Source: Microthyrium microscopicum
Lineage: Eukaryota > Ascomycota > Dothideomycetes > Microthyriales > Microthyriaceae
Direction: 5' to 3'
DNA length: 64,000 nucleotides
Assembly: GCA_010405405.1 (NCBI GenBank)
Contig: MU004247.1
Span: 74,501-138,500, forward strand
Shown: positions 4,775-62,428 of the stretch, one piece after another
How positions within the stretch are numbered: the stretch's first letter is position 1
Layout of the letters: each line of letters begins with the position of its first letter
The notes under the pieces: model-generated
What the model saw: the letters and a program-made list of their open reading frames with translations, nothing else
The model's database searches: none
Told to the model about the DNA's origin: nothing
Translations under genes and position numbers: made by a program

Positions 4775-4809
<35 letters not shown>

Positions 4810-4896: not shown

Positions 4897-5445
4897 TGTG
4901 GTTTGAACAGTGGTCAGAGGGTGTGTAAGGCTGAAGAATCTCGAAGTCTCCACTACATCTTATCTGTATTATATGAAAATGAGAACAACTCTATCTCGAA
5001 CTCATAAGGTCCGTCGTCACACCATAAAAGTTGGCAAACGTCTCAGCCGCGACGCCCTACCAAGAGTCGTAATTTCTATGGCAGGCCGTCAAAAGGTTCC
5101 AATCATATCGTGGAGTTGCCTCAAAACTTTTATGATTGGATTTAGAGGTCGAACCGCCCTCAACTCTGCAAGTTTATACTCTTGGCTGTAGTCTTGGCCT
5201 GCTGCAAATGTCCTAATAGATCAAAGAGGCATCCAATGGATAGACTGAATGCGCATCCAATACGAAAACCTGCTTAGGATGCTGCAGTGAACAGAGGAAA
5301 CAGAGCCTCATGTGGATGGTCGCGTGTGCACATATTGTGGTTGTGTGATCATTGCATTTTATCTGAGAGTTAGATCCTAACGTTTTACGCATGAATAGAT
5401 TTGACGTCCGTGTTACACTCCATAAATCATTATTCAAAGAGCAAG
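4897..5445. other. intergenic between divergent genes
   Basis: About 550 bp between the HET gene (minus) and the four-TM gene (plus), presumably holding both promoters. Short ORFs here look random. I could not identify a confident TATA box or operator. Confidence 0.5.
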
Positions 5446-6219
5446 ATGATCTTTGAGTACAACAAAATGGGGTTCCGTCAAGCCTGGCTCGATCGCGGTC
5501 GAGATGCTTCCTGGACACTAACATACGCTTTCAATCTCTTGATGGGTATCGGACTATTAATTGCCAGCGAGATCACAAACAAGTACGGCCGTGAGATATT
5601 CGGCGCTTCAGCAACCAACAACGCAGCCGGATCAGGCAATGATAGTGGATTTGAAGAGAACGCTGCGGCGATCAACCTCGTGGAACGAGATCATGCGCTT
5701 GCTCGTAGTGGAGTTGTCTCCTCCAATCGGTATTGCTGTGGTGTGAATCAAGTTCCTTACAATTTAGAGAATACCATTCTAAAAGTCCCAGGGCGCTGTC
5801 TCCATCATACTCACGATAACTTCCTTCGCCGCCTACAAATATCTCGATCACAAACGGCATCGCAAGGACACGAGGAAGGATTACGATCAGCGATCTGTTG
5901 TCGTTCTGGTTTTTTGTGTATTCAATGTTATCCTTTCTGGCGCATGTGTTGGTCTCATTGTTGGATTTGTTATAACGAGCCGAGCTGTGAAGCTGTATAC
6001 TACTGTGGAGTCATCTGCAACGCCGGGATACTTGATTGCGGCAGCTGTGATGGCGAGGTTGAATGCGTGAGTTTATCCAGACTGGAGAGAGTCTATTACT
6101 GACTTGATAGGGCAACGTTGTTCAGTACTGTGTTTCATGACTTCAAGAAGTTACGCTGGGAGCGAAGAATTGTCAAGCGAGATGATGAGGAGAGGGTAGT
6201 TCCTGAGCAAGAGAAATAA
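5446..6219 (+). CDS. four-TM membrane protein, unknown function
   Basis: Four exons: 5446-5590, 5646-5740, 5792-6066 and 6111-6219. The introns are 55, 51 and 44 bp with phases 1, 0 and 2 that all agree; the last has a perfect CTGAC branch site. The product is 207 residues. Hydrophobic segments lie near residues 18-42, 63-95, 110-140 and 153-175. A basic linker (YLDHKRHRKDTRKDYDQR) sits between TM2 and TM3, and the charged C-terminal tail ends in EQEK. No family is recognised; the layout resembles the many small four-TM fungal integral membrane proteins. Met 5446 opens the hydrophilic N-terminus; in-frame Mets at 5401 and 5467 are alternatives. Confidence 0.7.
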
Positions 6220-6487
6220 TCTATCATATTCAATGGGCTGAGCTGTCAGTATGATGGAGTATTTTTACATAACAGTATGGGCGAGAAAGAGAATCAACGT
6301 TGAGTCTGAGACTGCTTTCGGTATATGGTAATCGTGGATATCAAAAAGAAAAGGGGTATTGTTTGAATTCACTAAACTTGAGACCGGACTATTCTACAGC
6401 TCTCCGAAGCTTCGCTCAGCACACGATGCAGCTTTTGTGTATGATTCGATGAAATGGAACTGTTTCTACAGTTCCCTTGACTCTTCA

Positions 6488-38315: not shown

Positions 38316-38323
38316 GTGGCGAC

Positions 38324-38344
38324 CAGTGTTGGCATCTGACTCAC
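38324..38344 (+). repeat. left terminal inverted repeat of hAT
   Basis: Matches the reverse complement of 62079-62099 at 20 of 21 positions; the single difference is a T/C transition. Just inside it lie several short GACTCGG / ACTTAACT-type motifs that resemble RIP-mutated versions of the palindromic motifs at the right end. Confidence 0.95.
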
Positions 38345-39599
38345 TTAACTCTGACTCGGACTTAACTTAGGCCCAATTGGGTAATTATTACGACTAACTT
38401 AACTAACTTAACTAATAGAAACTCTAGGATTTAGACTTAATTTAGACTAGTACTATATTTTAAAAGACTAACTTAACTTAAACTTAAGTTACTTAATAAG
38501 TTACTTAAGTCTAAGTCGCACTAATTCTTAAAATAGAATATACTAGCCTAATTAAGTTAAAAGCTATACTATTTAACTTAGCTAGATCTATAGAATTTAG
38601 ATCTATTTTTTATTTTTTAATATTATATCTTTATCTAGAGCTATACTAGTTTAAAGATTAGAAGTATTTTATTCTTTAATAATTATATATAAAATATTAC
38701 CTAATAGACTAAATTATAGTTAGATTTACCTAATATTTTATATTTAGTATATTTATATTTATAATAATAGGGAAAAAAATAAATTAGACTTAAATATTAT
38801 AATTATTACTTCTAATAGTAATATAATAGAATTAAGAACAATAATTAAATAGAGAAAATACTTAAAGATAAAATAAAATAAATATATTTTATAAAAATAA
38901 TAAATATTAAGATTTATTACTAAAGTTATATATATTTTAATTTATTAGAGTCTTAGGAATCTAAATATACTATTAGTTTTTAAGAAACTCTAGTATATAT
39001 TTATTTATTATCTAATTACTAATTTTAATTATTTTTATAAAAAGTAATATTTACTTAATATAGCTTAAATACTTCTATATCTTAACAATATATAGAGAAA
39101 ACTATATTATTAAATAGAGAAAAATTACCTCTATAGAATAGCTTAATTAGACTTTCTTATTTAGGCCTAGTTACGTTTTAAAATAAATAGAACCAAGTAT
39201 AATAATATATTTTATATTTAGAGTATAAATATTAAATAAGACTATTTTTAGTAGTTATAGTATAGAATATAGTTATTATAATATACTTTATAGTTTTTAG
39301 GATATATTAGTTTTTATTTAAATATATAAGTTATTTATTATTTTATTAAAAATAAATAAAATTAAAAAACTTATATATTCTTATTTACTAAGTATTTATA
39401 TACTATTATATTACTATTTATATACTTTTTATATCTAAATTTTTAAAGAAATATAATACTACTATTACTAATTCTTATATACTTACTCTTTAATTACTTA
39501 TTCTACTTACTAATAACTTTACTTTTTTATTAAATTCTTTTATTTTAACTCCTTTTTTTTATTTATTTCTAACTAAAATATAACTATAACTCTATAACG

Positions 39600-41906
39600 C
39601 CTAAACATTATAACTAGCTACTTAGTATCTACTATTTCTTACTCTTTTGCCTTCTCTAGCTTATATATATCTACTATTCCTTATATTTTTATTTAAATAA
39701 TCTTTTTAGCCATTTTAGCTACTAATTTATTTCTATCTTTAGTAATAATATCTCCTCTAATCCTAAAGGTACTCTTAATAGCTCTAGAAGTAGAAGGTAT
39801 TATTAAATACTTTTTAGCTAGATAAAATAAAACAAGATAAACTATTTATTTTTCTATCTAGTATTTAATAGGAAGTATTTTAGAACTTAGACGTATTTCT
39901 TCTAAATAACAAATATATTTAGGCTAACTAATAGCTTCATTAGTACTTTTAGAAGGCTTAATATAAAATAGATTATTATCGTTATCTTCTTTAGGATCTA
40001 GAGAACTTATATCCTAATTAATAAAAGTTTTAGGAAATAGCTTTTTAGTAGTAGTATTATATTTTTCTTTAAAAAGAATAGTAACGTTATTTAAAATCTA
40101 ACTATAATAATAATAAAAGGCATTAAAAGAGTTCTTAAAATATAAAAGCTTATATCTAGGATCTAGTACTAGAGCTAAAATATAAGGTTTTAATTATAAA
40201 ACCTTTTCAAAACTAGAAATCCTTTTAGGAAAGTATTTATCTAGCTTTTTAATACTATATTCTATAGCTTTTATAAAGTATTTACGATTAAGATAATTAG
40301 TATCTAATATAGTATTAATAAATATTTAAAATACTAGTCTTTTAGCTTCTAAGCCTCTAAAAAGATTATAAATATATAAAAGAGCTATATTTATAGTAGT
40401 ATAAATTTAGCTTTATAATTAAACTATAGGAATAATAAATAACTCTAGTATATCCCTTAAATTCTTTAGCGCTATTTAATCCTATAAAGATAAAGTAAAC
40501 TTCTTTTTAAACTTCTTATCTTTAGTATTTTGAAAGATATATTTAATAGTAATTTTAAGCTTTATTAAGCAATCTAGCATATAATGCGTAGAATTTCATC
40601 TAGTTTTTTGGTCTAGAGGCACCTTAGTAATCTATATCTTTTTATTAATTTCTTCTATTTTAATAGTAAGCTTTTAATAATTATTAAAGTTAGTTTTATA
40701 TTTATAAATATATTTAATAGCTATAACTACTTTTCTAGTTTTACCTAGTATTCCTTTAGATGCTATATTATCTAAAGCTACTTCTATTTAAGAATTTATA
40801 CTTCTAGCATTTAGAATAATATTTATAAATCTAGTTAAACTAACTTCTTTATTATAATTAATTTAAAATTAAGCTAAAATATCTTTTGTAACTAAATTAA
40901 TAATATATGTAGTATAATAAATATTATAGAAGTCTATAGTAATTCCTACTAGTTCTTTTTCGTATTATAGCTATTTAATAAGTATCTTATTATTTAATAC
41001 ATTATCTCTAATAAAACTAATAATATTTATAATATCTAAATCAAAAGTTCTAAGAATATTTATAAAAACAGAATAAAGATAAATACTAGTATATCTTTTA
41101 GTTAATTCTTTAAAGCCTAATAGCTTATATTAAATTTTGTAGTCTTAATCTATATAAATAGCAATTACGCCTAATATAGCTATTTAATTATTAGACGTCT
41201 ATGCATCTAAAGTAATTATAATATAATTATTACGTAAAATAACTACTTTAAGATCTTGTTTTAATTTATTTAAAGTAGTATTATAAGTAGAATATAATAA
41301 AGCTCTAAGGTTTTTATAGTTAATATTAGGAGAATACTAATTATAATATTATAGAAGCTCTATAAAAGATTTAGAACTATACATATTAAAAGAAAGATTA
41401 TTTTTAATTAAAAACTTTAAAACTAAATATAAAGTACCTTCTTTACTAAATTCTTAGCTAGTATTAGCTTTAGTACGCTTATATTTAGCTATAGTCTAAG
41501 GTATATTAACTTCTTAGCTATCTAGTCTAGCTTTATATTAAAATATAGTTTCTTTGCCTTTATCTAATTCTACTTTTCTATTAGTAGTAATAGTTTTATA
41601 GTAATTTTTATAATATCTATTTAAATTAGACGTTAAATAACTTTTTAAGGCTTAAATATTAGTAATTTTATTACATAGAGTATATATAGTACGTACTTAT
41701 TTAAGCTTAGTAAGATCTATAGGTAGTAATTCTCTTATAAAAAGCTTATTAGATAAAGTATAAAACTTAGAATTTTTATTTATTAATTTAAATTTTAGAT
41801 TATTATAGCTATTACTAGTAATAGTACTATTGCTATTAGATATATTAGATACGCTATTATTAGGAGCTAAAGAACCTTAACTTTAGTTAAAGCTAGAACC
41901 TAGCAT
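39600..41906 (-). pseudogene. hAT transposase, destroyed by RIP
   Basis: Read on the minus strand from a Met at 41906. The region of the conserved hAT core is visible near 41.2 kb: a hydrophobic strand, then Leu-Asp-Ala, a stop where the Trp of the WTS motif should be (TGG to TAG, a RIP-type change), Thr-Ser, and ILGVIAIYID. Near 39.72-39.82 kb the C-terminal dimerisation region is visible: YLAKKYLIIPSTSRAIKSTF then GDIITKDRNKL, the hATC pattern. Many stops interrupt it, nearly all explained by CpA to TpA or its complement. Length (about 770 codons) fits a full hAT transposase. Confidence 0.85.
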
Positions 41907-42261
41907 ATTACTATCTACTATAATAAAAGATAGAATTTCTATAAAAATAAAAAGCAAAAAAAAGATATACTAGTTTAAAAACCTAGATAAAAAAAACTAA
42001 ATTAGTAAATATTTAGCTAGATATAACTACGTAAAGAATCTAAAATAGCTAGTCTTAAATAGAAAAACTAAATATAGTAGAAAATAAATAAGAAACTTTT
42101 TTTTTAAATTTAAATTCTTTTAGATATTTTTTTAGATATAAGTAAATCTAATAGCAAAATTGCTAGAATAAGAGTAAAATAGATATAAAACAAATAGTTA
42201 AAGTAAATAGAAAAGCTATAAAGCTATAATTGAACTAAAAGCTTAGAAATATACTAGAAAA

Positions 42262-42465
42262 TGTTATAGATCCTCTTCGTTAAGATCTCTTTACAAGATC
42301 TCTAGCATCCCTATTACGTAATGCTAAGGGCTTAGCGCCTAAGGTTTAGCTAGCATAGAGCTTATCTCTTACTAGCCCTAATCCCTCTTCTAGATTCTTT
42401 GTTTTAGTTTTCTTAAATTATATCTATATCTAGATTATACTCCTTATATCTATAGCTTCTTAATA
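42262..42465 (+). repeat. 5' LTR of outer chromovirus
   Basis: 204 bp, paired with 58183-58386. It starts with TG and its right-hand partner ends with TA, where the ancestral CA has apparently mutated. The two copies differ essentially by transitions. Confidence 0.93.
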
Positions 42466-44474
42466 TAAAACTAAGACCGCTCTAATATTTAAAACCTTTT
42501 TTTTAAAACGCGCCTACTAATATTATAAGATTTAATAATTTACGCGTCTAAAATCTACTATTCTATATAAAAATAGGTCTTTAGATTTATAAGAATAATA
42601 ACTTTACTAGCGTAGAGATTTATATATAAGGACTAAATAGCTCCGTTAGTATAGACTAATTAGTAATTAAGAAGAAGATCTTAGCGTCTTCTACTTTATA
42701 TCTACTAGACCTATAGTAATAGCTTCGTCTTATATCTATATTTTCTTCTATATACCTAAATTAATAGTAATAAACCTAAATTAAGAATTACTTTTAAATA
42801 AAATGCCTAAACCCTATTCTAAACTTACTACTCTAATAAAGTAAATCGTTTAGAAGACCTTAGCTAAACCTTATGCATTAGTGCTATCTACTTATTATTA
42901 TATAATACTAATCCTACGAACTATATTTAGTAAACTAATTAGTAGTCCTTAGTTAGAGATGCGCTTATAATCTAAAATTTAATAGCTCTAAGAGACTTAG
43001 TTTACTATATAGTAGTTAAATACTAATAACCTTAATAGTAATAATAATATACCTATACTACTTTGTAGCTATAGCTAGCGCTATTTCTCTATTTACTCCT
43101 ACTATTTTTCTTTAGCCTAAGCCCTAATCCTATTAAATATTATTAAATAACCTAAAGGTAGCGCTTAGAGTATATCTAAAAAGGATAAAGGTAAGAAAGT
43201 AGTACGTTATAACGTATAACTATATCTACTAGACTAAGATTAGATTAATTAAATCGCCCTTAAAGGTTAATACCTATAGTACTTTGTAATATACGTTAGC
43301 ATTACTCTATAAGATTAAACTCGTATTATCTTTATGTACCTTATATAAGACTAAGTAGTATTCTAAGTATAAGAGTCTCTAAACCTAGAAGGAAAAATTA
43401 GACCTATACTTATTAACTTTATTATACTCTACTATATTTAAGGCGAAGTAGAGCTAGAAGTTATTAAGGATAGAATAGGCTTTACTTATAGTATTAGCTT
43501 TTACGCTAATACTTAGTTTAAATAATTCTATAACTACGTTAAATTTACTTAAGCTATAAGTATTATTTTTAAAGCTATATATATTAACTTAGTAAATCTA
43601 TTAAAAGAATACTAGTATAATAAAGATAGTATATTAGACTTCTTTACTATATATAACGACGCTATAGTATAAAATTTTTTCCTATAGTAACGTATTTATA
43701 CCCTAAAAAGTAAAGCTGCCTAAATTATAAGTAAGGCTTATTAGTTAATTAAGTAATAACTATACCTTAAGGAATAAGATATAATTAACTACTATGAGGT
43801 AACTAGAGCTATAGATACTATTAAGCGTCTATATAACTCTTATACTAAAAAGCGTAATTAGATTATACTTCTAGAAGGAAAAATCTAAGATCTTAAAGAT
43901 TAACTAAGCAACTTAGCTTATAAGACTAAAGAACTAGCGTACTAAATAGACTCTAATAAGGAAGATACTATGCTACCTCCTTAGAGCTATTTATACCTAA
44001 ATCTTTGTCTTAATACTAAGAGCACTATACCTACCTTAAAAGCGTTAGTAAGCTTTAAGACTAACTTTGTATAAGAGTAGTAAAATCTTAGTACTTATAA
44101 TAGTAAAAAGTAAGACTTATATTCTTAATAGAAGCTTAAAGTTAAAGACTATCTCTACTACAAAGTATATACCTTTTCTACTAAGCTATTTTAAGCTATT
44201 TAGGTTCGTAGTAAATATAAAGACTTTATTCTTAGCTTCGTTATTAATTATGCTTAATATAACGTACTTAATCTATATACTTCTATAGTAGAGTTTTAGG
44301 ATAATCTTAACTACTATTTTAAAGGTACTAATAAGTATAAAGCTACTTTTCTTTAGTTATAGAATTCATCTAATAAGATAAAGAAGACTAACGACTTAAA
44401 CTCTTACTTAGTTAAGTTTGCTAGCAAAACTAATAGAGCTTACTTATCTAATATTAATAAACTAACTTATATAC

Positions 44475-44742
44475 TATTAGAAATAGGTTGTTCTAAGTAG
44501 GTAAAGACTATAATTATTATGGTTTAAGTAGATACGTAAAAATAAAGATAAGAGTAATTACTAGAAAGTTACTTAAACTCTTATAATCCCTTTTCTTTAT
44601 TACTTAGAGCTATAAGGACTTTATTAAGCTATTTATATTTATAATAAATCGTTATTAGTTAATCTAACTAATAATACTTTATTCTATATAGATATATTTT
44701 ATTAATAGTTATCTTAAACTAGAGGTATCCTAATTTCTAATA
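44475..44742 (-). repeat. left LTR of inner chromovirus
   Basis: 268 bp; pairs with 52986-53253. The outermost bases form a short inverted pair (TATTAGAAAT at one end, TTTCTAATA at the other), consistent with mutated TG...CA LTR ends. Confidence 0.93.
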
Positions 44743-47700
44743 TTATCTTCCTTCTTAAGGCTATTTATCCTAAAGAGTACTTTTAAAGGTTCTAATAGAT
44801 ATTTCTTATACTTATATATAGTTTTTAACTATACTCTATTATATTAAGACTTAGAAGAGGATAAGGCTTAACTAAATATATAGAATTAAGTTACTTATAT
44901 CTTAAAGAGTCTTTTATAGCTTAATAATATTCTTATTCTTTAGCTTTAGTATATTACTTATTTAAGATAGATAGTCCTCTATTTTTTACTTACTCTAGAT
45001 AAATAGCTCTCTATTTTCTACTAGTCTTAGGCTATAATTAACTATATTAACTTAAACTTAAAGAAGTCTAGTTATTAAGGTTTAATATATTAGTAAGATA
45101 TCTAATAAGTAGTTAATAGCTTTATTAGAGTCTTAATTAGTTAATACTAGCTTTATTAAAGCTAAATTAACCTATTTATAAATATAGTATAGTACTACTA
45201 TTTATATTTAATTAAATCTTATTAAAATACTACTAAATAGTTATTTTATATATAGTATAAGTTATTTAGTTATTAAAATATATATAGCTTAACTTAGTTA
45301 GTTATACTATATTAGCTATACTAAATTTATATTAGTTTAGTATAATTAGCTTTATAATAAGTTAGGTAGCTATAACTTATATATAAAACTACTTTATAAG
45401 CTTTATTTAGTTCTAAATTAAAGATATATTTTAACTCTATTTTATATTAAAAAGAGTTCTTAAAGAAGTACCTTTTATATATATATTTTAACGCTTCTTA
45501 TATCTAATTAAGAGTTATTTTACGTTATTTATAGTAAAGTATTTAAATCTTTACTTAAAAGTTTAAAGACTTTAAGGTTAAGATTATACTTTCTTATTTA
45601 AGAAGTTATAACTTTTTTAAGTACTTATTATACTATATATAACTTCTTTTTATTATAGAAGGCTTTTATAAGTCTTTACTAAGTATTATTATATTAATAC
45701 TTAGCTATTTTAAAAAGATAAAGAAATTTAGGTATAAAATAACTTTTCTTACTTTAAATCTTTTATCTTTTATTTTTTATACTCTAAATTTTAAGGTAAG
45801 TAGAAATTCTATAGTTTTATAAATATATATAAAAATTATTATTATTAATATATTTTACGTTATAGGTTCTTCTTTAATAACTATAAATTTTCTTTTTTTA
45901 GTTATTAAGCTACTTAGTACTTTTTTAGGTACTTTTAACCTATTTTAGTATATTTTATATCCTTCTAACTTTTAATAATTTATCTTAACTAATCTATATA
46001 CTTTTAAATCTATCTTTATTTAAAGTAGGTATTAATATAAATAAGTTACTTAAAGATTCTATTAAAGGCTCTTAGGTTCTTACTAAGGGTAACTTTAACT
46101 CTAGTAAGACTATAGTAACTATTTCTACTAGTAATAATATTATTATATCCTATAATAACTAAATCTTAATTATTAATATTATAGACTTTACTAAAATAGT
46201 CTCTAAGAATAAAATAAAGTAAAAATATACTAATAAGAGTATTATAGCCTTACTTAGCTTATTATAGTATTACTTAACCTTAAATCCCTATTAGTATTAT
46301 ATAGAGGTCTATATTATATATTTTTCTCTTTTTTTAACTACTAAACTTTACCTTATTCCTAACTTAGACTATTATTATACTTAATAAGTTAGTTTAGGTA
46401 AATACTTTATTAAATACTTTAATATAAAGTTAACTAAGAATTATCTAGAAGTAGTATCTTATTCTAGCTTATTTTATATTATATTATACTAATATAGATA
46501 AATTATTCTTTATTAGAACCTTTATAATAAGGCTAAGCTTATCTTAGTCTATATTATAATTAATAAGGTTATTTATACTCTTAAGAATAGTTTTTAAAAT
46601 AAATTATTCTATAAAGATAAGTATATATTTTATAGTAGTATTTAGTATACTTATAAGTATATAGTAACTCTTTATAAGTTATAAGTACTTATTTTAACTA
46701 ATTCTAGTCTAGTTTTATATATTTAGATACTAATTAGTTTATAATTATATATCTAAGTAGCTAGTAGCTAACTTCTTTTTATTATATTTTAGTATTATTA
46801 AGAGTAGCTTCTATATAACCTACGCATTTATTAACTACTATATAGGTACTAAAGCTATCTAAAAGCTAGTAGATAATAGTCTTTTAGAATTAAAGAAGTA
46901 TATTATAGCTTATATAGTTCTCTTAGCTACTAATATTTAATTTTATCTTTCTAAGTACTTTAAGTACTATAATATACTATATTCTTAGTATTAAGACTTC
47001 TACTATATTATTAGTTCTTAAAAACCTAACTTATCTTAGGTAAGTCTTTTTATATTTATAATAAGTTACTTTATATCTAACTATCTTATAGTAATTTACT
47101 AATACTAAGAATAATCTAAGTAGCGTCTTTATAAACTCTTAAGTACTTCTTAAGTACTATAAAGCTTATTTTAGTACTTTTAAGTACTAAAAAGTTAAAG
47201 CTTATATTAAAAAGGCTATTAAAGTCTTCTATAAAGATAGTTATATTAATAAGAACTATTCTAAGATTAAAGCTATAAGTTTTACTATAAAAAAGCGTAA
47301 AATAGGCTAGGTAGCTTCTTCTTAAGTTAAAATAGAGTTAGATAGATTATTTTAGGTTTTTTAGAATTTAGTATTATCTATACTTAGCCTTAATTAGCTA
47401 AGTAGGGCTATTTCTTATTATATTAAGTTATTTTACGTCTTTTAAGGATAGGTTAGTTAGTAGATATTCTTTTAAGACTTCTTAAGGATAGGTTTATTAG
47501 TAGATACTCTTATAAAACTATTATATAGCTAATTTAACTCTTAGTTAGAAATTACTTATTCTTTTATATATTTTCTAATATATATTTTAACTCTATTTTA
47601 TATTAAAAAGAGTTCTTAAAAAAGTATTCTTTCTATACGTATAAAGACTTATTTTATATATTATTCTAAGTTATTTTATATATTTATAACTTAGTAGTTT

Positions 47701-50700
47701 TCTTATATACTTATTATCTAGTACTATTTTTAAGTTACTTTAGGTTAATTTATTATAATATATATATAAAGAGGTTAATTTTAGGTTCTAATTAGTAAGA
47801 AAATTATAAAATAACTATTCTCTTTCTTTAAAAGCTTATTTTAAGTCTTTTAAGTCTTCTTTAGCCTTCCTAGCTATTTTTTTAGTCTTATAGAGTTAAG
47901 ATTTATTAACCTATTTATAATATTATTTAGATATATTATTTTATATTTAACTACTTCTTTAATTATATTTATAGTAAGTATAATACTCTTTTTAGCTAAC
48001 TTTATATAATAGCGCTTTAAAGTAATTAAAAAAAGATTAGCTATAAGCTCCTAAGTTAATTCTAATTCTAGGTAACCTTTCTATTTTATAAGGTAGTAGT
48101 ATTTATCCCTTTTATTTACTATATACTTTATTACTTCTTCTATATTATATATATTTAAGTCTTCTAGGTTTAAAGAATCCTATAATAATATAGACTTTTA
48201 TAGAAAGTAAAAGTTTAGCTTATATAGCTCTAATAGAAAAATATAAAATATATTATAGACTTATATATTCTTTAAGAGGTTAAGCTAGTAAATATTAGTA
48301 TTTATAACCTTTATAATCTTAAAGAGGCCTATATACTTAATATTAAGCTTCTTTTTAACGTAAGTAGTCTAAATATTCTTTATATTAAGTAAGACTTAGT
48401 TACTAATATTTAAATAAACGTTTTTCTTCTTTTTATTATACTAGTTAGCTTAGTATAGCTATACTTTAGCTAATTTATTCCTTATTATATATTATAAAAA
48501 TAAGATATAGTTTACTATCTTTTTAGTATTAAGTATAATACTTTTTAATAGTATTTTAGCTAATTTAGGAATATAGGAGTTCCTTTTAGTATATATAATA
48601 AAAGAAGTAACTCTAGTTAATAAGTAAATACTATTATTATAGTTAAACTTAGCTAAACTAAGCTATTTTACCTAATTATTCTATTTCTAATACTTATAAA
48701 TCTATAAGTAGTACTTAACTTCCTAGTTTAAGTACTCTATTTAACTATTAATCTATAGGTAGAATGCTATTAAGAGCTTTTTAAGAATAGAAAGGTAATA
48801 AAGAAATGTTTTTTAATACTTAAAAATAAAGAGAAGTCCTTAATTAAATATAATAATATAAAGTATATTATATAAGTATATAACTTTTTATAAAAAGATC
48901 TTAATAAAGTCTTTTATATCTATATCTTTTCTTATTAAGATATAGTAGGCTATTTTAGTTAGTTTATTAATAATTACTATAATAGAATTATAGATTTAAC
49001 TATTATAGATACTTAAGAGTAAATTTATAATAAAATCTATAATAATATCCTTCTATAGCGCTTTTAAGACTAGTAAAGCTATTAATAACTCTTTCTAGGC
49101 CTATTTAATAGATTTATTATATTAGTAGTTAAAATAAGCTTTATAATAGTCCTTAACGTTTTTTTAAATATAGTTCTAAGTATAGTAGCGCTTAATTTTC
49201 TTAAGTATCTTCTTTAACTCTCTATAACTACCTTTTATAGCGTTATTATAAAACCTTTATAGAATTTTCTTCTTTTATAACTTTTTCTTAATAAAAATAA
49301 GATTTTTACTTATCTATTTCTCTTTATCTAAGTTATTCTTAGCTAGAGAGGATTTATTAATAGCTAAAATTTTATTAGAGCTTATTTTTAGATACTTCTA
49401 AGTCTTAGTAGGCTTATCTTAACCTTTCTTAAGTTAGTTTATAGTAGAATACTATATATTAATACTAACGTACGTAATAATAAAGTTTATAAGTCTAATA
49501 GCGTTAGTTTTAGCTATAGAAATATTATTAAGCTATAACTTATTATAAAGTAGATTAAGTAATACTTTTATAGTCTTTTTCTATTCTTTTTAGCCCTTTT
49601 TAATATAGTCTAGACGTCTTAAGGGTCTATTAGCTAGATTTATTTTGCTTAGGTAATATTTAATATTAAAATTATATTCTAAGAGTAAATCTACCTATCT
49701 TATATATATTAATAATATTTTTAGTATTATTTTAAGTAATTTAAGGTTTATATAGTCTATTAAGACCTAAAATTAGTCTAGTAAGCCTTATAAGTACTTT
49801 CTAAATACTTTTAAGGAATCTATAATTACTAAGAACTCTTATTATAAAGTCTTATAGTAGCTCTCTAGTAGAAATAATTTCTAAGAATAAAATATAATAA
49901 GTTTCTATAAGCTATTCTAGCCCTTATTATACTATCTTTAGCTTAATATCTTATAAATTACCCTTCTAGAAGTATTAATTTCTAACTATATAGGAAGTAT
50001 AAAGTTAAAATAGGCTAAAATTAGTATATTTATAAAAGAATCTTTTAGTTTATTAAAAGAATCTAAGGTATCTAATAGTAATTTAATATTTATAGACTCT
50101 TTCTATTATAGCTTTAAGCCTTTTAGGGCCTAACCTAGTTCTTTCTAGATTAAGGCGTTTAGTAGTATAGTAATATAAAAGAATCTAGTATTAAATTAAT
50201 AATAATAATTTATAAAGCTAATAAATTTCCTTACTTAATATATATTACGTAGTTTTAGCTAATTTAGGTATATATTAACTTATAACTAATTTATAGTAAT
50301 ACTATCTAGGGTTATAATATAACCTAAATACTTTATACTACTAGTATAAAACTTATACTTAAATAGTTTTATATATAAATAGTATTCTATAAGTTACTAT
50401 AAAACTTCTTAGACGTCTTTAATATATTACTCCTTAATTTTAGAGTAAATAAGAATATTATTAAGGTAAATAATATATATTACGTCTATTAAGCTTCTTA
50501 ATACTTAATTAATATATACTTAGAAGGCTATAAGAGTATTTATAAGTCTAAATAGAACTATTATATATTTAAATATTCTATATTTAGTTCTAAATATAGT
50601 TTTCTACTTATTACTATCTTTAATACATAAATAGTAGTAAGCTTTATATAAGTTAAGGCTAGTAAAGAACTTAGTACCTTAAAGTCTATTTAAAGACTTC

Positions 50701-52985
50701 TTAATAAAAGGTAATATATACTAATTCTTAATAATAATATTATTTAGGCCTTAGTAGTTTATATAGAGTTATAATATCTTATCTTTCTTCTTTATAAAAA
50801 GGATAAAAGCTTTAGTAAAAAATCTTAACTTCTAAATTTAACCTCTTATAAGATAAGTATCTAAGTACTTATATAGAATAACTAACTTAGCTTCTAAGAA
50901 GCTATAAATAGGTCTATATAGTATTATAATACTTAGCTCTAGGTTAATCTTAAAGTCTTATAGACTATATTAAGCTAGTTTAAGTATATCTTATTTACTA
51001 AAGGCTTTAGTAAACTATAAATACTTACTTAGAAGCTTTTTTATAAATAAATTTAAGTCTAGTAATCTAACTAGATAATTAAATAGTTAGAATAAACTAT
51101 TCTAAGCTAACTTAAAAAACTTATTAATATTTATAGTCTCTATCTTACTATAAAAGCTACTAAAAAGTTACTTTTACATAAGAGTTTTATTCTTAAAGTC
51201 TAAAAGAGGATTCTACTTTTCTAACTAAGGCATTCTTATAATAATAAGGTAATATAAAGAGTCTATAATATAAAATAACTTTATCTTAGTCTTAGAGAGA
51301 CTATTTAAGTTAACTACTATTATTATAGCTTCTATAACTTTATAAATTTATATAGAAGTACTATTTAGATATATTATAAGTATCTTAGAGAAAAGAGTAA
51401 TATAAAGCTAAAGTTTTTTAGTTAATTTAATATCTATAATATTAAAGTATAATTTATAATTAACTATAATATCTAAGAATAAGGCCTCTTAGCCCTTATT
51501 ATTTTTTAAACTCCTTTATAAGCATATTTACTTTAACTTTAGTCTTATAAAGTCTATCTTACTAAGTAAGTTATTATTCTTAGCTCTTAATATCTTTAGA
51601 ATATATATAATAATAGTCTTATAAAGCTATTTAGCGCTAGGCTAAGCTATTTTATTAATAAGAAAAGTTACTAAGTCTTAGTCTATAACTTTATAGCCTT
51701 ATTTTTTCTTTATAGCTTAGAATATTCTATTTTAAAGTAAGATTTACTATATTTAAAGTATTTAATCTTTTTTAGATTAAACTCTAGTAGAATATCTATA
51801 TTCTAAGTTATTTTAAGTATAGCTTATTCTACTTTACTATCTTTTAAAAAGTAAAAAGACTTTTTAAGTATTCTTAGCTCTTTTAAGCTTTTCTTATACT
51901 TATACTTATCTCTTAAAGAGTATAAGTATTATTTTAGAAAAAGTTATTCTAGGTTTACTTTTTTAAAAATAGAATAAGCCTTAGCTTCTATAGAATTAGA
52001 AGTCTAGTATAAGTTAGCTTTTTTAAGGGCCTTTTTAACTATAGTAGTAGTAAACTTCTTATTAAAGAGAATCTTTTTTTATATATTCTTAAGAAGGCTT
52101 TTATAAAACTAAAAAAAGTAACTCTTTTAGTTATTATACTTTTATTTTTTCTATAACCTAAGAAGGTTATTATAAAGCTCTTATAAGTAGTATTAACTTA
52201 ATTTAATTATTTAGAATTTCTTAAAAGTAATATATTCTTACTTTATAGAGTAGCCTAAATAGCTTAGTATATAGTCTTAGACTATTTATTATATTTTTTA
52301 GAATCTTAAGTCCTAAGATTCTTTATAAAGGATAAGATTATCTAATCTTATTTATAATAGTTCTTTCTTAAGCTAATTATATTTATAAATATACTAGTAG
52401 AGTTACTAGTTATAAGTACTCTTTTAATAAAAGGGTTTAATAAACTTTTATTTAATATTATTAACCTAGAATATATATTCTTAGAGACTCTTCTCTTTAT
52501 AAGGCTCTATCTTAAGCCTATCTTAGTTTAAAGGTCTTAAAAGGGTAAGAGCTTAGCTTAAAAGATACTAATTAGGTCTTATTATATTAACTTAGCTAAA
52601 GTTCTCTAACTCTTAAGTAATTTTAAGCTTACTAGACTAGATTACCCTAGTTTTTATTATTAGCTCTTATACCTTAAGCTCTAGCTTCTTTTTATTAATA
52701 AGTATATTAAGTTCCTTCTTATAGTATATTATAAAATTATTTTAGATTTCTCTAGGCCTAGATAGGTTAAAATTAGCTAGTTTAATATTAAATAAGTCTA
52801 ATAAATCTTTAAATATATTAATTTAGAGTATAATAGGTACTAATAACTCTTAGCCTAATAGTTAAGGCTACCTAAGTCCTATCTAGGCATTAAAGTCTAA
52901 ATATTTACTATTAGATATAGTTTCTAATTAAATAAAAGATAAAAATAATTTCTTTAAGTACTTAAGGATTAAGAAATAATTACTA

Positions 52986-53253
52986 TATTAGAAATAAGTT
53001 ATTCTAAGTAAGTAAAGACTATAATTATTATAATTTAAGTAGATATATAAAAATAGAGATAAGAGTAATTATTAGGAAGTTACTTAGACTCTTATAATCC
53101 TTCTTCTTTATTACCTAGAGCTATAAGAACTTTACTAAGCTATCTATATTTATAATAGGTTATTATTAGTTAACTTAACTAATAACGCTTTATTCTACGT
53201 AGATATGTCCTATTAGTAGTTATCTTAAACTAGAGGTGTCCTAGTTCCTAATA
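52986..53253 (-). repeat. right LTR of inner chromovirus
   Basis: 268 bp; pairs with 44475-44742, same length with no indels. It is followed at once by the second copy of the TATAC target duplication. Confidence 0.93.
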
Positions 53254-56200
53254 TATACGTAATATAATTACTAAAGAGTTAATAAGCTATCTCTATATTA
53301 GTAAAGTAACTATAAGTACTAAATTTATAATAGAACTATAATAAGTTAACTACCTCTTAGACTATAAGAAGTCTAATAATAAGGATAAGAATAAGGATAA
53401 AGATAAGGATAAGAATACTTAGAAGATAATTCTACGCTATAGTAATATCTTATTTCTACGCCTTAAGAAAGAAGAATGCTACCTACGATATAGTAATAAA
53501 GGCTATAATCTATAAGCTAAAACTATATCCTACTAAGGCAAAGATGCTATGTCTAATAATAATATCTAAGCTAAATTAGCTTTAATCTATACTTTTTAGT
53601 TATACTATACTCTAAGTATAGAAGATAATAATAATATACCTTTAACTTATAGCTAATACTAAGGAAATATATAGCTCCTCTATACTAACGCGTAGATAAG
53701 CTAAACTCTAATAAGGCGTAAAATAAATAAAAAAAACGCTAGATAGAAGCTATCTAAGCTTACTTAAGTGAATCTAAATCTAAGGAAGAACCTTATTATA
53801 GTATAGTAGTAGTCTACGTATCTACTATCTATCTACTAATTAATTAATTACTAGAAACTAATACTATCCTAAAAGTAGGATAATAGTAGAGTACTATAGG
53901 AAGTATCTTCCTTTTAGATAGCTCTTATATTAAAGCAAAAATTCTTATTAATATAGATAGTAGCGTATTTAGTATTATTAACCTTTATTACCTCTAACTT
54001 TATAGCCTTAAATTTATTAAAATATTAAGACTCTATTAAGCTAAAATAGCTAATAGTTACGTTATTACTACTATAACTTATATAGTATTTATTACCTTAC
54101 GTATTAATATTTATCTTAAATAAGCCTTATACTTCGTTATAGAAATTACTAATTATAATATTATCTTTAGAAACCCTTAGGTTAATAAGTATAAAGTTAT
54201 ACTCTAAGAAGGCTAGCGAACGTTAGGCTTCTACTCTAAGTACTATTTCTAAGACTATATAGCTTTATACTACCCTATTATAGTTAATTATAGAGGCTAA
54301 GTAGTTATAGAAAAGAAGAATAAGAATACTTCTAATATCTATATTATTTTTCTTTACGTATTTATAACTCTAATATAATAAGAGAAAAACTAATTCTTTG
54401 TATTATATAAAGAAGATTTTAATACGTTAGAAGAAGAAGAAGATTTAGATTCTATTCCTTAGCGTAATATTGCTAGTATTATAGTAATCTTAATAGAAGA
54501 CTATACTAAATAGCAAGAGAAGCTTAAATAGAATTTACTAATATAAGAAGAATTACTTAGCCTAATCTCTAAAGAATTTTATTAATATATTTACCTTTTT
54601 AACCTAGTATAAGCTAATAAATTACTATCCTATTGCCCTAAATTTAATTACTCTATCTTAATAGATCTATAAGCTAAAGCACCTATATAGAAGTTTTATA
54701 AAATATTGTGCTAATAAGCTTAAGTTATTAAAAAGTATATTAAAAATATACTTAAGAAAGGCTTTATCTATAAAAGTACTTCTTAATACGCCTTACTAGT
54801 TTTTTACGTTAGTAAACTAGGTAGAGGTATCTAAGTTTATATAGATTATTATAAATTAAATAAAATTACCTTAAAGAATTAGAATATTTTGTTACTTCTT
54901 ACTAAAACCCTTATAAAAATCTATAAAGCTAGATTCTTTTCTAAATTTAATATTATTACTACTTTTAATAATATTTAAATTTATAAAGGTAATAAATATA
55001 AAACTACCTTCCTTACCTACTATAGCTTATTTAAGTCCCTTATTATATTATTTAATATAACTAGCTCTTCTAGAATATTCTAAGCCTTTATTAATAGTAT
55101 CGTTTATAAATACTTAGATAATTTTATTACTATATACCTAGATAATATCCTTATCTAGAGTAAAACTAAAGAAGAGTATATTACTTACGTCTATCTAATC
55201 CTTAATAAGCTTAAAAAAGCTAGCCTCTATCTTAATATTACTAAGTTAGAATTTATAACTAAGAGCGTTAAATACCTTAGTATTATTATTATCTCTAATA
55301 GAATCCTTATAAATAAGAAGAAGGTAGAAGTAGTACTAAAATAGTAACGTTCCTTATTACTTAAAGATATCTAAATATTCTTAGGCTTTGTAAACTTCTA
55401 CTACTAATTTATTAAAGAATACTTAAAAATTATTATACTTATAATAGTACTTACTAAAAAGGACGTTCTTTAACGTTACTCCTAGAACCTAGATGGCTCT
55501 AAAGAAGCTACTTTTAAAGCCTTAAAGAAAGCTTTTACTATAGCACTAATTTTGTAACATTTTAATCTTAATAAGGAAACCTAGCTTAAAACTAACGCCT
55601 CTAATTAAGTTGTCGCTATAGTTCTCTTATAAAAGAATAATGATGAAGGACTTTACTTAGTTACCTTCTTATCTAAAAAGATAATACTAGTAGAGTATAA
55701 CTATAATATCTATAATAAGGAACTACTTATAATTATCTACATATTTAAAGAATAGGAATTAGAGCTATTCTTTATTAACGATCTTATTAAAGTCTATATA
55801 GACTATCTTAATTTATAGTTATTTATATTTATAAAAAAGCTCTCTTACTATTAAGTATACTAGGTAAAGTTCTTATTATAATTCTAATTTAAAATTAAAT
55901 ATTATAATAAACTATTAAATGCTAAAGCTAATACCTTTATCTAATAATCCTAGGACCTACTATAATCTAATAATAACCTATAAGTTGTATAATAAGTACG
56001 TCCTATACTATTCTTTTACTATTTCGCTAATACTTATAGTATACGTTATATATTTAATATAATTACTTATAATATATACTAAGCTATTAAGGTAGTAACT
56101 ATACTAGTTTAGGGTAAACGCTCTTTAATAATTAAGTTAGCTATAATTATTACTAATAAAGTTAATATGTTTACTATAGAAGGAGAGTTAACTAGTAATC

Positions 56201-58182
56201 TAACTATAGAGAGTTATCCTAAGGACGCTCTAACCTTAAAGGAATTAACTAGTTATCTTAAGGTAAAGAATATGCCTACTAACTTAGAAACGTTATAAAA
56301 GGATATTATTAAAGTAAGCAAAAAGGATAAGCTTATTTAAGCTATTTATAATTATAAAGTAGCGTAGTATTACTACTTACTTTATAATATACTAGAACGT
56401 AAATCTATTAAGCTTAGAGACTATTAAGTCCTTATAGATAGAACTATTTAATATTGCTAGTGCCTACTAGTTCCTTATAAAAAACTTTACTATTATATAA
56501 TATAATATATATATAATTATAAGATTATAGGATATAGAAGCACTACTATAACTTATTAACGTCTATCCTAATTCTACTATTAGCCCTATATAGCAAAAGA
56601 TATTAAGTAATATATAAAATAATGCTACTACGCTTTCTCTAAGCTAGTAATATAAAAGAAATAAGACTTACTATAGTTATTTCCTTTACTAAATTATGTA
56701 TAGGCTAATATCTTAATTAACTTTACTATCGCGTTATTACTATATGTCTACTTAAGAGTTATTTATTACTATACTATAATAGTAGTTAATAGACTTACTT
56801 ATACTTATTACTTTATACCTTTAGCTAACCTTAGCGTCTAGATAATAGTATTAGCATTCCTTAACTAGATTTAGAAATATATTAGCTAGCTAGATTTTAT
56901 TTTATTTAATTATGGATCTTAATTTACTTTAGCCTTTTAGTGCTACTTATATAAGTAAGTAAGAGTAATAATCTATTTTACTATTGCTTAGTACCTATAA
57001 TTTAATAGTATTACTAAGATTATAGTATAAGCCCTAAAAGCTTACTTATAATACTTTATTAATTACTAATAGAATAATTAAGTAGGACTCTTACTATTTA
57101 CTAAGTTTAAAGCTAACTACGCTATTTACGCTATAACTAAAATAAGCCTATTTAAAGCGCTTAATAGCTTATTGCTACGCTCTAGCTTTGAATTAGGTAT
57201 ACTAGGCAAAGTATTTATAAGCTTTAAGCTAGTATAAAGTAAATAATACTTTATAAATATATTCCTTAAAGATAGATAAGACTTGCGTAATTATCTTCGT
57301 AAGTAAATTTCATAATTTTAGGCGCTAATAAATAAGTAAGTTAACTAATACTACTATCTAGCACCTAACCTTAAACTAAGTAACTAAGTATATCTAGATA
57401 TATATTACTACAAAACTCTTTACTTCTCTAAATTACTTAATAATAAATCTATTAATCTATTTAAGATCTTAAAGAAGATTAATATACTTACTTATAAGCT
57501 TAATCTCCTTAAGAAGATAAAAATATACTCTATCTTCTATGCTTAGCTTTTATATTTTGTCCTTAAAGGTGCTACTATACTGTAAGAATCTAATAACTTA
57601 TTAGCTATTACTAATCTAGAAGAAAATAACAATAAGTAGAAATAGTTAATTAACCGCGTTATTAATAGCTATTAGTATAATTAGCAAAGAAAGAGTAAGA
57701 AGAAGATACTCTAATATAAAGTTAAATTTATTAGATAGGATAATTAGAATCACGACCTAGATTAGTAATTATAGATAGATCTTAAATTATGCCTTAAGCT
57801 TATAGTAGAGTTTTATAACTATAATTCTATAAAACTAGGCCTATATAAATCGTTTATTAATCCTTAGAAGAAGAAAAATAAAGAATATAACTTTGATAGT
57901 ATTCCTCTTAATTAGTAAGGTTATTATTATTACTATAGTAGTATCCTAATACTTTTATAAACTAGAGTATTTTAAGGATATCTTATAGTTCGTTAATGCT
58001 ACTTAATAGTTGCCTTAGTAGGCTAGAGAGTAGTAAGGAATAAATACTTATAGTATTATATATAGAAGGATATTAAACTCTTTACTTTTATTATTATAGT
58101 TATAATACGTTTTATATTTATTATAGCGTTATCCTATATAGTTAAATTAGCTTAGGAGCGCTAATGTTAGAGGGGGAAGTAT

Positions 58183-58386
58183 TATTATAGATTCTTTCTA
58201 TTAAGATCTCTTTATAAGATCTTTAGTATTTTTGTTATATAATATTAAGGGCTTAGCGCCTAAGGTTTAGCTAGCATAGAGCTTATCTCCTATTAGCCTT
58301 AATCCCTCTTCTAGATTCTTTATCTTAGTTTTCTTAAATTATATCTATATCTAGATTGCACCCCTTGTATCTATAGCTCCCTAATA
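58183..58386 (+). repeat. 3' LTR of outer chromovirus
   Basis: 204 bp partner of 42262-42465. It directly follows a polypurine tract, which fixes the plus orientation of the element. Confidence 0.93.
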
Positions 58387-58428
58387 GAAAAATAGTAAAT
58401 AAACTAAATATTCTAATAGTATAATTAG

Positions 58429-58715
58429 CTAAATAAACTAATACTAAAGAGCAAAAGTAAATAAAAGCTAGAAGCTATAAAAGCTAATCCTAAAAATAGA
58501 ATAGTATAGAAATATATTATATAGTAATAGCTTTTATATAAAAAAATACTTAAAAAGTAGTTTCTAACTAGAATTTCTAGTAAAATACTAACTAAATAAA
58601 CTAATACTAAAGAGTAAAAGTAAATAAAAGCTAGAGGCTATAAAGCTAATCTTAAAAAGGGAATAGTATAGAAATATATTATATAGCAATAGCTTTTATA
58701 TAAAAAAATACTTAA
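58429..58715. repeat. direct tandem duplication, period about 163 bp
   Basis: A segment beginning CTAAATAAACTAATACTAAA at 58429 recurs at 58592. The copies are alike for about 125 bp, with mainly transition differences, and each ends in a poly-A-rich tract. It lies in the hAT right arm just outside the outer chromovirus. Confidence 0.85.
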
Positions 58716-59519
58716 AAAAAAAAGTAAAAAAGTTAAAAAATATAAATACTATATAGTAAGTATAAAAATAAGATTTAGGGTAGTAAGAAGATATAGATTA
58801 GCTATAACTAATATAGAGAGTAATAGTTATAGATAGTAGTTTAGCTTATAGAGGAGGAAATATCTAAAAAACTAAGAATTCTAAGTAGAATCTACCTCTA
58901 TAAGTATATATATAACGCTAGATTAATATATGCTAATTACTATTATATTTAGCAGGTTTAAAGCTACTAAACGTTATTAAGATTACCTCTTTTAGGCTAG
59001 TATTGCGAAAGTTATAAATAATAATAATAAGGAATAATATTAAAACTATAAAATAGTTTATTATAATAGGATAAATGCATAGTAATAAATATAGTTTTAA
59101 GGGGCTAGACCCTATAAAATAACGCTAAATAGGGGTATAAATACTAAGAGTTTTAATAGTTAATACATTATTAACCCTTTTAATAATACTATTTATATAG
59201 CTTATTTACTTTATAATAATATTATCCTTTATTATTATTATGTATAACTTTTATAATACTAGCCTAAAATAAGTAATCTTTATAGCGTTTAGAAGCGCTA
59301 AACCTACTAAATATAATAGTACTATTTAGGTCTTTATTATAAGTCGTTATTATATATATATTCTTTAGTTATTTATAAAGAACTTACTTTTTAATAATCT
59401 ACCTATTACTTCTACTTTTCTATTAAGGACTATATTTTAGTAGTATCTAGAAGTAGCCTTAGAGGCTATTTCTACTTATTTTTTACTTTATTCTATATAA
59501 TATCTCTTAGTAAGAATTC

Positions 59520-59550
<31 letters not shown>

Positions 59551-59849
59551 TTATTAATTTTCTAGTCTCTATACTTAATCTAGTATACTTTTATACTAGT
59601 TTTTAGTACTATTTAAATTAGCAAATTCTTCTCTATTAAATAGTATAGCTTTTATATTTTTATTAGCCTTATAGCATAAGTTATCTATTCTTTTTTAACT
59701 TTTTTTTTTTTTACTTATTATTTATTATAGAGACGTAGTAATTACTAGATATTTTAAAAGTAAGTCTCCCCTACTCTTTATTATAGCTTTAACTAATTTA
59801 TATTTTTTTATAGAGCTTTCCCTTAATAATTCTTATGTTAAACTATAAA

Positions 59850-60700
59850 GATTCTTAAATAAATTCTTAGGTTATAGAAACGCCCTTTTATTTAAAAATA
59901 AATTAAACTATAATTCTTAGATACTATAACGTAAATAGGTAGGAAATTAGGAATTTAGCTATATTATTTATATTACTAAGGAATATAATCTATGACGTAT
60001 ATATTTTAATTTCTTACTTCTTTTAGTAGAAAGAAATATTAAATCTTTTATAATTTATTTCATTCTAGAAATTAGGTAAGTTAATTATAAAGCTATATTC
60101 TTATATAATAGTAAGGAAACTAGTATTCCTATTACTTATAAGCCTATTGCTATCTAGTCTTCTTATAGTTCTAAGATAAAACTTTTATTACCTAAATTAG
60201 TAATAAACTAAGGAGGCCTTAAAGCTAATTAGATAGAAGCTACTTTTAGACTAGATTCTATAATATTTAGGTAAGCCCTTTATACTTTATTCTATTTAAA
60301 TTATATACTAACTCTTTATAGTAGTAAAGATTACGTTTAAAAAGTATATAAATCCAACCTAAAATAGAATTCTAAGCTAAATGCTTATTACGCTAAAGAA
60401 TGTTAATTTAAGCATTAGAAGCTACTAGATAGCTATCTTCTAGTAAAGAAGGAATACGTAATTAAGCAAAAGCTAAAGCATCGTCTTTAAAAGGTTAGTA
60501 ATATTACTTTTATTTACTTTATTTTACTAATTTTTTATAGAAACTAAAGCTTAAAAACTATTAAGCTTTAGATTTATAAGAATCTAGCTTTACCCCTAGT
60601 ACTATATCTAATTCTACCTATATAGATAATACTAGTATTAATACTTCTAATCTAGATATAGATTATAATCTAAATTATTTCTTTTAGTTAGTTTTTACTA
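59850..60700 (+). pseudogene. second, intron-bearing gene fossil in the hAT right arm
   Basis: A RIP-decayed coding stretch on the plus strand, opposite in orientation to the transposase. One frame stays protein-like for long runs around 60.05-60.27 kb (for example AIFLYNSKETSIPITYKPIA). Two sequences look like intact fungal introns: 60271-60321 (GTAAGC donor, CTAAC branch, TATAG end, 51 bp) and 60494-60540 (GTTAGT donor, TATAG end, 47 bp). Basic, Lys/Gln-rich sequence lies between and after them. No domain is recognised. It is not a usual hAT component, so it may be a captured host gene or an accessory gene of this hAT lineage. The start and end are approximate. Confidence 0.5.
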
Positions 60701-60890
60701 TTTTTTTTATTAGAGTTAGGATTTTCTTAGAAAATTGCTTATATAATTAAAAAATATATTGCCTATCTTCTAGAGCTAAATTTTCTTATTTAAACCCTAT
60801 ATTTTATATATCTTAACTCTTAGTATTTACTATACTATTTAATAAATAAGCTTTTTTAAAATTAATAATAAATATAAAAAATAAGAATTA

Positions 60891-61289
60891 AATAAGAAAA
60901 ACTACTATTACTATCTTCTAGAGCTAATTATAAGAATTATAAAGATATATAGAAGTTATACTAAATATAACTAATAGCTATTATAACTTTATATTTAGAA
61001 GTTTTAATTAGAATCTAAAGGTAAATAAGAAAAACTATTACTACTACCTTCTAGAGCTAGTAATAAAGATTATAAAGATATATAGAAGTTATACTAAATA
61101 TAACTAATAGCTATTATAACTTTATATTTATAAGTTTTAATTAGAATCTAAAAGTAAATAAGAAAAACTATTATTACTACCTTCTAAAGCTAATTATAAG
61201 AATTATAAAGATATATAAAAGTTATACTAAATATAACTAATAGCTATTATAACTTTATATTTAAAGGTTTTAATTAGAATATAAAAGCT
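60891..61289. repeat. three tandem copies of a 133-bp unit
   Basis: Units start at 60891, 61024 and 61157, each beginning AATAAGAAAAACTA(C/T)TA. They are very similar, with mostly transition differences. A partial, more diverged copy starts near 61345. They lie in the hAT right arm, about 0.8-1.2 kb from the terminal repeat. Confidence 0.9.
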
Positions 61290-61635
61290 AATAATAACTA
61301 TTAACCTTAAATATATAATAATATTACTTATAGTATAATACTAAATAAGAAATACTATTACTACTAAGTTCTAAAACTAATTAAAATAAGTAGAAATATA
61401 TATAGTAATATACTAGTATTTATAAAGTCTTAGATAGTTAGATTTATTATATTCTAATTAGTTACTATAGCTATATAATAAATAAACTAGTATATTTAAA
61501 CTATAATATTAAGTAGGCTACTATAATACTCTATAGAACTTTTAGAATACTAAAAGATTAATATATATTATTACTAGTTTATTTAATTACTTTATCTATA
61601 TATTAAAAAAGAGTAAATTCTAAAGTAAATTATTT

Positions 61636-61717
61636 GTTTTAGTAGTATAGTAGTTAGTATATTTATATTATACTTCTTTATAATATAAAAAACGTTAGTT
61701 TAAATCTAACTTAGTAC
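61636..61717 (+). other. decayed tRNA-like sequence
   Basis: 82 nt with an A-box-like start (TAGTATAGTAGTTAGTAT) and a perfect T-arm: stem GTTAG / CTAAC around the 7-nt loop TTTAAAT (a mutated TTCAAAT). Acceptor halves GTTTTAG and TTAGTAC pair at six of seven positions allowing G-U. The anticodon arm is a strong hairpin (ATATTATA ... TATAATAT). C-to-T and G-to-A changes are as expected from RIP. The anticodon is unclear. It may be a host tRNA gene picked up by the element or the head of a tRNA-derived SINE. Confidence 0.5.
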
Positions 61718-62078
61718 GTTATTTAGTTCTTTTTTAAATTTAAATTCTTATATTAGCTATAACTCTATAACTAGTCTAGCTAGATAAAATCTAAGACTAG
61801 ATTTAGATTCCTTAATACTAGAGCTATAAAATAGTATATAAAACGTTCTATATTTCCTATATTTAGCTATATTTAAATATCTTAGCGACTCCTTAGCAAC
61901 TTCCTTAAGTTACTTAAGTATTAACTTAAGTAACTTAAGTGTTTTATATTAAGGATTTAGACTTAATTTAGGTAAAAAATACCATGATTAGTACTTGATT
62001 CAGACTAGTACCTGCTGACTAAAAGACTAACTCGAGTCGGATTAGTCGACTCCGAGTCGAGTTAAACTCGAGCAAAGA

Positions 62079-62099
62079 GTGAGTCGGATGCCAACACTG
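62079..62099 (-). repeat. right terminal inverted repeat of hAT
   Basis: Pairs with 38324-38344. Adjacent subterminal sequence (62020-62075) is dense in ACTCGAGT, GTCGAC and CTCGAG palindromes, a normal-composition patch at the very end of an otherwise RIP-saturated element. Confidence 0.95.
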
Positions 62100-62428
62100 G
62101 TGGCGACATTGAAATTCGATTTTTCTTTCCCTCGCCGATACAATCTACATGCTTCGAATTTTGATAATCACCTACCCTCTCGAGTGATACTGCTGCAACA
62201 TAGACACTGTCAGCTTCACCCGATCAATATTAGGACGCTGCTGCGATATGCCGCGTCTGCTCCCACTCCGTCTTGTACATGCGGCTCCGCCGATTCCATC
62301 AATCCGACTTCCTTCACACCACATTGGCGATACGAAAGTGTATTAGTAAATACAGAGAAGTCCTTCGCCATTCCACTGATGAAAACCACGGTCACAATCT
62401 TCTGTAGACGTGTCAATACTAAGGCTAT

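Follow-up and report, generated by a model that had tools for sequence, protein, structure and literature searches.

What kind of element fills the AT-rich block of a 64,000-nucleotide stretch of the Microthyrium microscopicum genome (C18:74501-138500, hereafter the window), and did all of it descend together? The block was originally predicted to be one hAT insertion with retroelements inside it and a long right arm. We find that it is such an insertion; the prediction had missed that the arm holds a second conserved gene and that the arm and the transposase half appear to differ in ancestry. Our proposal, to which we assign a probability of about 0.85, is that this is a two-gene hAT whose second-gene half was exchanged with that of a related family, and that this hAT later received retroelement insertions and was inactivated by repeat-induced point mutation (RIP). 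The hAT of the window is called family X; Y, Z, V and U are related hAT families (our grouping) in the same genome, which comprises 36.9 Mb in 20 contigs. "Core" positions are element coordinates without the nested retroelements. RIP produces transitions only, and transversions are therefore a record of older selection.

The insertion and its copies

A perfect 8-bp target-site duplication (GTGGCGAC), inverted ends agreeing at 20 of 21 positions, and a hAT dimerisation domain between them identify the block as a single hAT insertion, as predicted (Table 1). With up to three mismatches allowed, 100 shuffles produced no matching pair of ends. Both ends start with CAGTGTTGGCA, giving short terminal inverted repeats that begin with CAGTG, a start typical of hAT ends. 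A third copy of GTGGCGAC, at 37154, adjoins no transposon end; the shuffle mean is 0.32 copies per window. GC content, taken in 1-kb steps across 39001-62000, is 17-26%, whereas the two flanks have 49% and 46%. Within the insertion the (CA+TG)/(AC+GT) index ranges over 0.02-0.18, and it is 1.24 in each flank. In the transposase relic, the dimerisation domain (PF05699) scores 26.7-28 bits (cut-off 21.4), compared with 56.2 bits in a Y copy on C10; the RNase-H catalytic core (PF14372) reaches 16.4 bits, under its cut-off of 27.

Among alignments of more than 80 columns, the same terminal inverted repeats bound two further insertions in the genome: a full copy at C4:1947963-1970045 (duplication CGCGTCAT; 22,083 bp including a long N stretch) and a 233-bp palindromic derivative at C1:4486544-4486776 (duplication ATCGGAAG). 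The duplication is perfect (8/8) in all three X copies, their target sites are all different, and nowhere in this genome were these ends met at a breakpoint without it. The two full copies differ by 0-0.2% transversions. The C4 copy also bears on the description of the block as composite. Retroelements were indeed added to the hAT later, but the 23.8-kb block never moved as a unit, because the C4 copy is free of the retroelement.

The terminal sequences of family Y are close to CAGTGTTGGCACTCGAGTTAGTA. The nine end pairs of this family comprise two spans of 8.3-8.4 kb, one of 9.2 kb, one of 30.6 kb with insertions, and five of 266-1349 bp; the 8-bp duplication is perfect in eight, and the ninth matches at 3 of 8 positions. 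N stretches interrupt three of the four long Y copies. The copies on C4 and C10 and two on C2 contain such stretches, and their lengths depend on them. A pattern search for further related ends found none. Subtracting the 16,125-bp long terminal repeat (LTR) element and its 5-bp duplication from 23,776 bp leaves an X core of about 7.65 kb, as predicted. The core is long beside the typical hAT of about 5 kb, but not uniquely so, given the Y copies of 8.3-8.4 kb and a published Pseudocercospora fijiensis hAT of 9.5-9.9 kb (both published values from PMC6710886). Long hAT elements are normal in this genome.

Ancestry of the two halves

The right arm (58392-62099) matches four Y copies at 88-91% identity and four family Z loci at 69-73%. 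Fixed transversions between X and Y along the core number 12-29 per 100 bp up to 42116. Beyond the first breakpoint, placed in part from alignments of 150 or more columns, they drop to 0-4 per 100 bp as far as core 4400 and to 0 at core 4400-5500, and then rise to 1-5 at core 5500-6300 and 2-11 at core 6300-7275 (to 61731). Expressed as percentages, X-Y transversions amount to 16-19% across the transposase, with a single comparison over 106 bases reaching 23.6%; they make up 3.8% of the 158 bases right of the breakpoint, 0.4-2.5% over core 3938-6300 and 4.3-6.8% over core 6300-6700. Y copies differ among themselves by 0-1.5% in all compared blocks. The first breakpoint is common to the window and C4 copies.

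Quartet trees built from purine/pyrimidine-coded alignments, with V10, V7 and U2 as outgroups and 1000 bootstraps each, conflict between the two halves. The transposase places Y with Z in 1000/1000 bootstraps with each outgroup (98-101 supporting sites, versus 42-43 for X+Y and 28-31 for X+Z). Exon 4, the main conserved exon of the second gene, places X with Y in 999/1000 with each outgroup (22-28 supporting sites, versus 6 and 0). In the second-gene block, X-Z and Y-Z transversions both stand at 18-19%. On these sequence comparisons, the right arm is a segment exchanged between X and Y after the families had diverged.

The second gene and its association with the transposase

Descriptions of hAT elements usually include a single gene, that of the transposase. 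The second gene found here is read from the plus strand, divergently from the transposase, and tblastx together with a nine-row alignment shows exons whose splice-like signals coincide in position. In that alignment, family Z is represented by four right-arm loci chosen from the more distant ones; L045, mainly a tandem-repeat match, was left out. Between the window and the four Z copies, exon 4 carries 12-13, 7 and 36-37 transversions at codon positions 1, 2 and 3 (153, 154 and 153 sites), with p values of 1.3e-7 to 3.1e-7 that are not independent, the Z copies being nearly identical in transversions. The last exon leans toward the same pattern. In the transposase the pattern is weaker (X versus Y, 17.1, 13.9 and 22.7% at the three positions). 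The five introns of the window copy differ from those of the C10 copy by 0-2% transversions. By eye, the public M. microscopicum gene model BT63DRAFT_416737 is letter for letter the second gene of the C10 copy over most of exon 4; it shares two splice joints with our model and differs at two.

A protein search located 17 second-gene loci in the genome (26 rows merged by hand). These were compared with a transposase set made up of all 17 dimerisation-domain rows and 24 of 58 match rows that we took to overlap the body of the transposase. For 13 of the 17 loci, representing families Y, Z, V and U, the second gene is situated downstream of a divergently oriented hAT transposase and at most 15 kb away from it; random placement gave a mean of 0.16 and a maximum of 3 such loci in 2000 trials. 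The window locus is 17.6 kb from its transposase because retroelement A sits between them, the locus at C5:1905795 is 27 kb from one, and two further loci are without one. Seen from the transposase side, a second gene occurs within 15 kb of 10 of the 17 dimerisation-domain hits and within 35 kb of 13. About five families retain the gene, and in the most distant of them its product shares 25-34% of amino acids with the Y version. The second gene belongs to this hAT lineage.

Searching solved structures by sequence gave no convincing relative of the second protein (best E 1.1), and a structure predicted from just the main exon of the window copy, in which stops were kept as residues, had a mean predicted local distance difference test score (pLDDT) of 44. 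A wide protein search returned no match when the unsecured first exons were in the alignment; with exons 4-6 it returned one, BT63DRAFT_416737, the annotated C10 copy of this same genome. A captured histone H3 or other domain was rejected as a candidate, as six-frame Pfam scans of both arms gave the hAT domain only. A genome scan for PF12851 (TET/JBP) found no match, in a run whose control was also unmatched anywhere. A literature search on second genes, chimaeras or mosaics in hAT elements, with subscription journals mostly outside its reach, found no description of the second gene; on transposable elements of the host it turned up one paper only, which concerns a different fungus.

Proposed history and its alternatives

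In the proposed history, the minus-strand transposase would excise and insert the element and make the 8-bp duplication. The second gene most likely encodes an accessory protein that aids movement or escape from silencing, by analogy with the TET/JBP genes of other fungal DNA transposons (PMC12730594). Its half of the element would have been swapped between X and Y together with the region upstream of the gene, inside both transposon ends, probably by ectopic gene conversion, for example when a copy belonging to the other family served as template for the repair of an excision gap. Transposition in exchanged form appears to have followed in the X lineage, because the first breakpoint is common to its two full copies, which differ in target sites. 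Retroelement A would then have entered the C18 copy and B would have entered A, before RIP acted over everything.

The nested elements were predicted correctly: there are two LTR retrotransposons, A a Gypsy element and B a probable one, together occupying 16.1 kb. The C4 copy reads straight through the site of A, uninterrupted, so A arrived later. On the plus strand A shows reverse transcriptase, then RNase H, then integrase, with the features of Ty3/Gypsy elements; its integrase zinc-binding match of 18.2 bits is under the cut-off of 25.5. Element B, on the minus strand, has LTRs and a 5-bp duplication; its RNase H and Tf2-like SH3 matches exceed their cut-offs, and the domain scan gave no reverse transcriptase or integrase match for it. 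Within the two LTR pairs, 28 of 204 and 34 of 268 positions are mismatched, and every mismatch is a transition, which fits recent insertion followed by RIP.

As to the direction of exchange, families V and U are saturated and not decisive for its polarity. We lean toward Y as the family that received the arm from X; transfer from Y to X is the less likely direction, though a serious competitor. Next comes the question of whether the second gene has any role in transposition, or was picked up a single time by an ancestor as passive cargo from the host. Capture of host genes by fungal hAT elements is on record, for example histone H3 in Pseudocercospora (PMC6710886), and no known domain links the second protein to transposition. 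But passive cargo would hardly be expected to persist in about five families with constraint at the protein level and mostly the same divergent position, and we regard this reading as unlikely. It is conceivable that no exchange occurred and that the right arm merely evolved more slowly than the transposase under stronger selection, as constraint at codon positions 1 and 2 is stronger in exon 4 than in the transposase. However, low X-Y divergence extends to introns, spacer and foldback (0.4-1.0% transversions, core 4300-5000), and slower evolution of the arm cannot produce the conflicting trees because X-Z and Y-Z divergence in the second-gene block is high; we give this explanation almost no weight. 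An equally slim chance attaches to a separate mobile element having inserted at the same place in both families. In its favour, neither edge of the shared block falls within a secured exon, but in family Z a homologous arm (69-73% identity) keeps this order and orientation, and the arm looks old in the lineage.

Several observations weigh against a simple two-gene element with one exchanged half. The climb in X-Y divergence along the right arm makes one clean exchange too simple, and the right breakpoint cannot be checked in the C4 copy, which has another insertion at this place and contains a long N stretch. Exons 1-3 and 5 of the gene model have no clear codon-position pattern and are unsecured, exon 4 has inexact edges and a length that varies by 5 bases (460 in X and Y, 465 in Z), and Pfam gave the second protein no match at E<=1 and no recognised domain. 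Four of the 17 second-gene loci are without a divergent transposase within 15 kb, and seven of the 17 dimerisation-domain hits are without a second gene within that distance.

A broader proposal, for which we would offer somewhat less than even odds, is that the second gene defines a branch of two-gene hAT elements with a dedicated accessory protein (a transposition partner or a counter-silencing factor). In this branch of about five families, a promoter-plus-gene module might be passed on by gene conversion, and transposase and helper might be exchangeable. The exchanged arm would mean that DNA transposon families can swap halves yet keep their own ends, and that a family tree built from the transposase only would put half of this element in the wrong position. 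In heavily RIPed genomes, transposon histories can be recovered from transversions alone, and a conserved partner gene raises the testable question of how such hAT elements move or resist RIP.

The element shares 8-bp duplications, short inverted ends, the dimerisation domain and small derivatives with the same ends with the hAT superfamily (Ac/hobo/Tam3); it differs in its second conserved gene, its length (7.65-8.4 kb across X and Y) and its exchanged right arm. Three published elements come close to it. The P. fijiensis hAT (PMC6710886) is likewise from a Dothideomycete, is RIP-mutated, and has 20-bp inverted ends and 8-bp duplications, but its extra sequence is a captured histone transcript, present as histone H3-like copies, whereas the window arms gave the hAT domain only. 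The TET/JBP-carrying hAT7 of rust fungi (PMC12730594) is also a fungal hAT whose second gene moved between transposon lineages; it has 7-bp duplications and a TET/JBP dioxygenase, in contrast to the 8-bp duplications and Pfam-unmatched second protein here. ToxhAT (PMC6737239), a large hAT-like element of Pleosporales that in one species also has a RIP-mutated LTR element inside, spans 14.3 kb with 74-bp inverted ends, eight annotated genes and, in that account, no duplications found; the window ends agree over about 22 bases only.

Table 1. Features of the insertion (window coordinates)
Feature	Position	Strand	Remarks
Left target-site duplication	38316..38323		GTGGCGAC
Whole hAT insertion, family X	38324..62099		23,776 bp including nested elements
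Left terminal inverted repeat	38324..38344	+	20/21 versus right one; first 9-11 bases also at family Y ends
hAT transposase relic	39642..41909	-	one frame with stop codons
Dimer_Tnp_hAT	39687..39908	-	PF05699
Proposed first exchange breakpoint	42117..42178		X-Y fixed transversions fall from 12-29 to 0-4 per 100 bp
Gypsy LTR retrotransposon A	42262..58386	+	16,125 bp including B; GAAAA duplication at 42257-42261 and 58387-58391
Probable Gypsy LTR retrotransposon B, within A	44475..53253	-	8,779 bp; TATAC duplication at 44470-44474 and 53254-53258
Right arm common to X and Y	58392..61731	+	88-91% identical; up to about 60750, 0-5 fixed transversions per 100 bp, then 2-11
Two tandem copies of intergenic block	58417..58718	+	92% similar over 142 aligned bases; starting points some 160 bp apart
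Foldback (inverted repeat)	58938..59321		384 bp; also in Y copies
Second gene, main conserved exon (exon 4 of model)	59811..60270	+	
Second gene, exon 5 of model	60322..60493	+	no clear codon-position pattern
Second gene, last exon of model	60541..60687	+	
133-bp tandem repeat array	60855..61303	+	
tRNA-like sequence, RIP-mutated	61636..61718	+	Rfam RF00005, 29.2 bits (cut-off 29)
X-type right end	61732..62099	+	15 transversions in 111 aligned bases versus Y at inner part
Right terminal inverted repeat	62079..62099	-	
Right target-site duplication	62100..62107		GTGGCGAC

Annotation of the tRNA-like sequence as a transfer RNA (tRNA) gene was rejected, its Rfam match being borderline and ARAGORN finding none. 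The right-arm search matches part of this sequence near two family Z loci, so it may have long belonged to the lineage. In the C4 copy, the other insertion ends almost exactly at the junction matching window position 61728, where X-Y similarity also stops. To the right of the window, C18:138501-148500 is a further AT-rich block (GC content 0.23) with no open reading frame of 100 amino acids. The 30.6-kb Y copy (C5:82740-113356, perfect duplication) encloses a distant hAT pair, with a second gene at C5:92350 and a transposase at C5:94703, and is apparently a hAT inside a hAT. The short Y derivative at C8:1265037-1265302 has matching ends, a perfect duplication and a GC content of 0.45 including short flanks, consistent with escape from RIP by shortness. 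Part of the intergenic block shows 76-83% similarity across distant families, a higher level than the genes themselves reach, and is perhaps a shared promoter or transposase-binding region.

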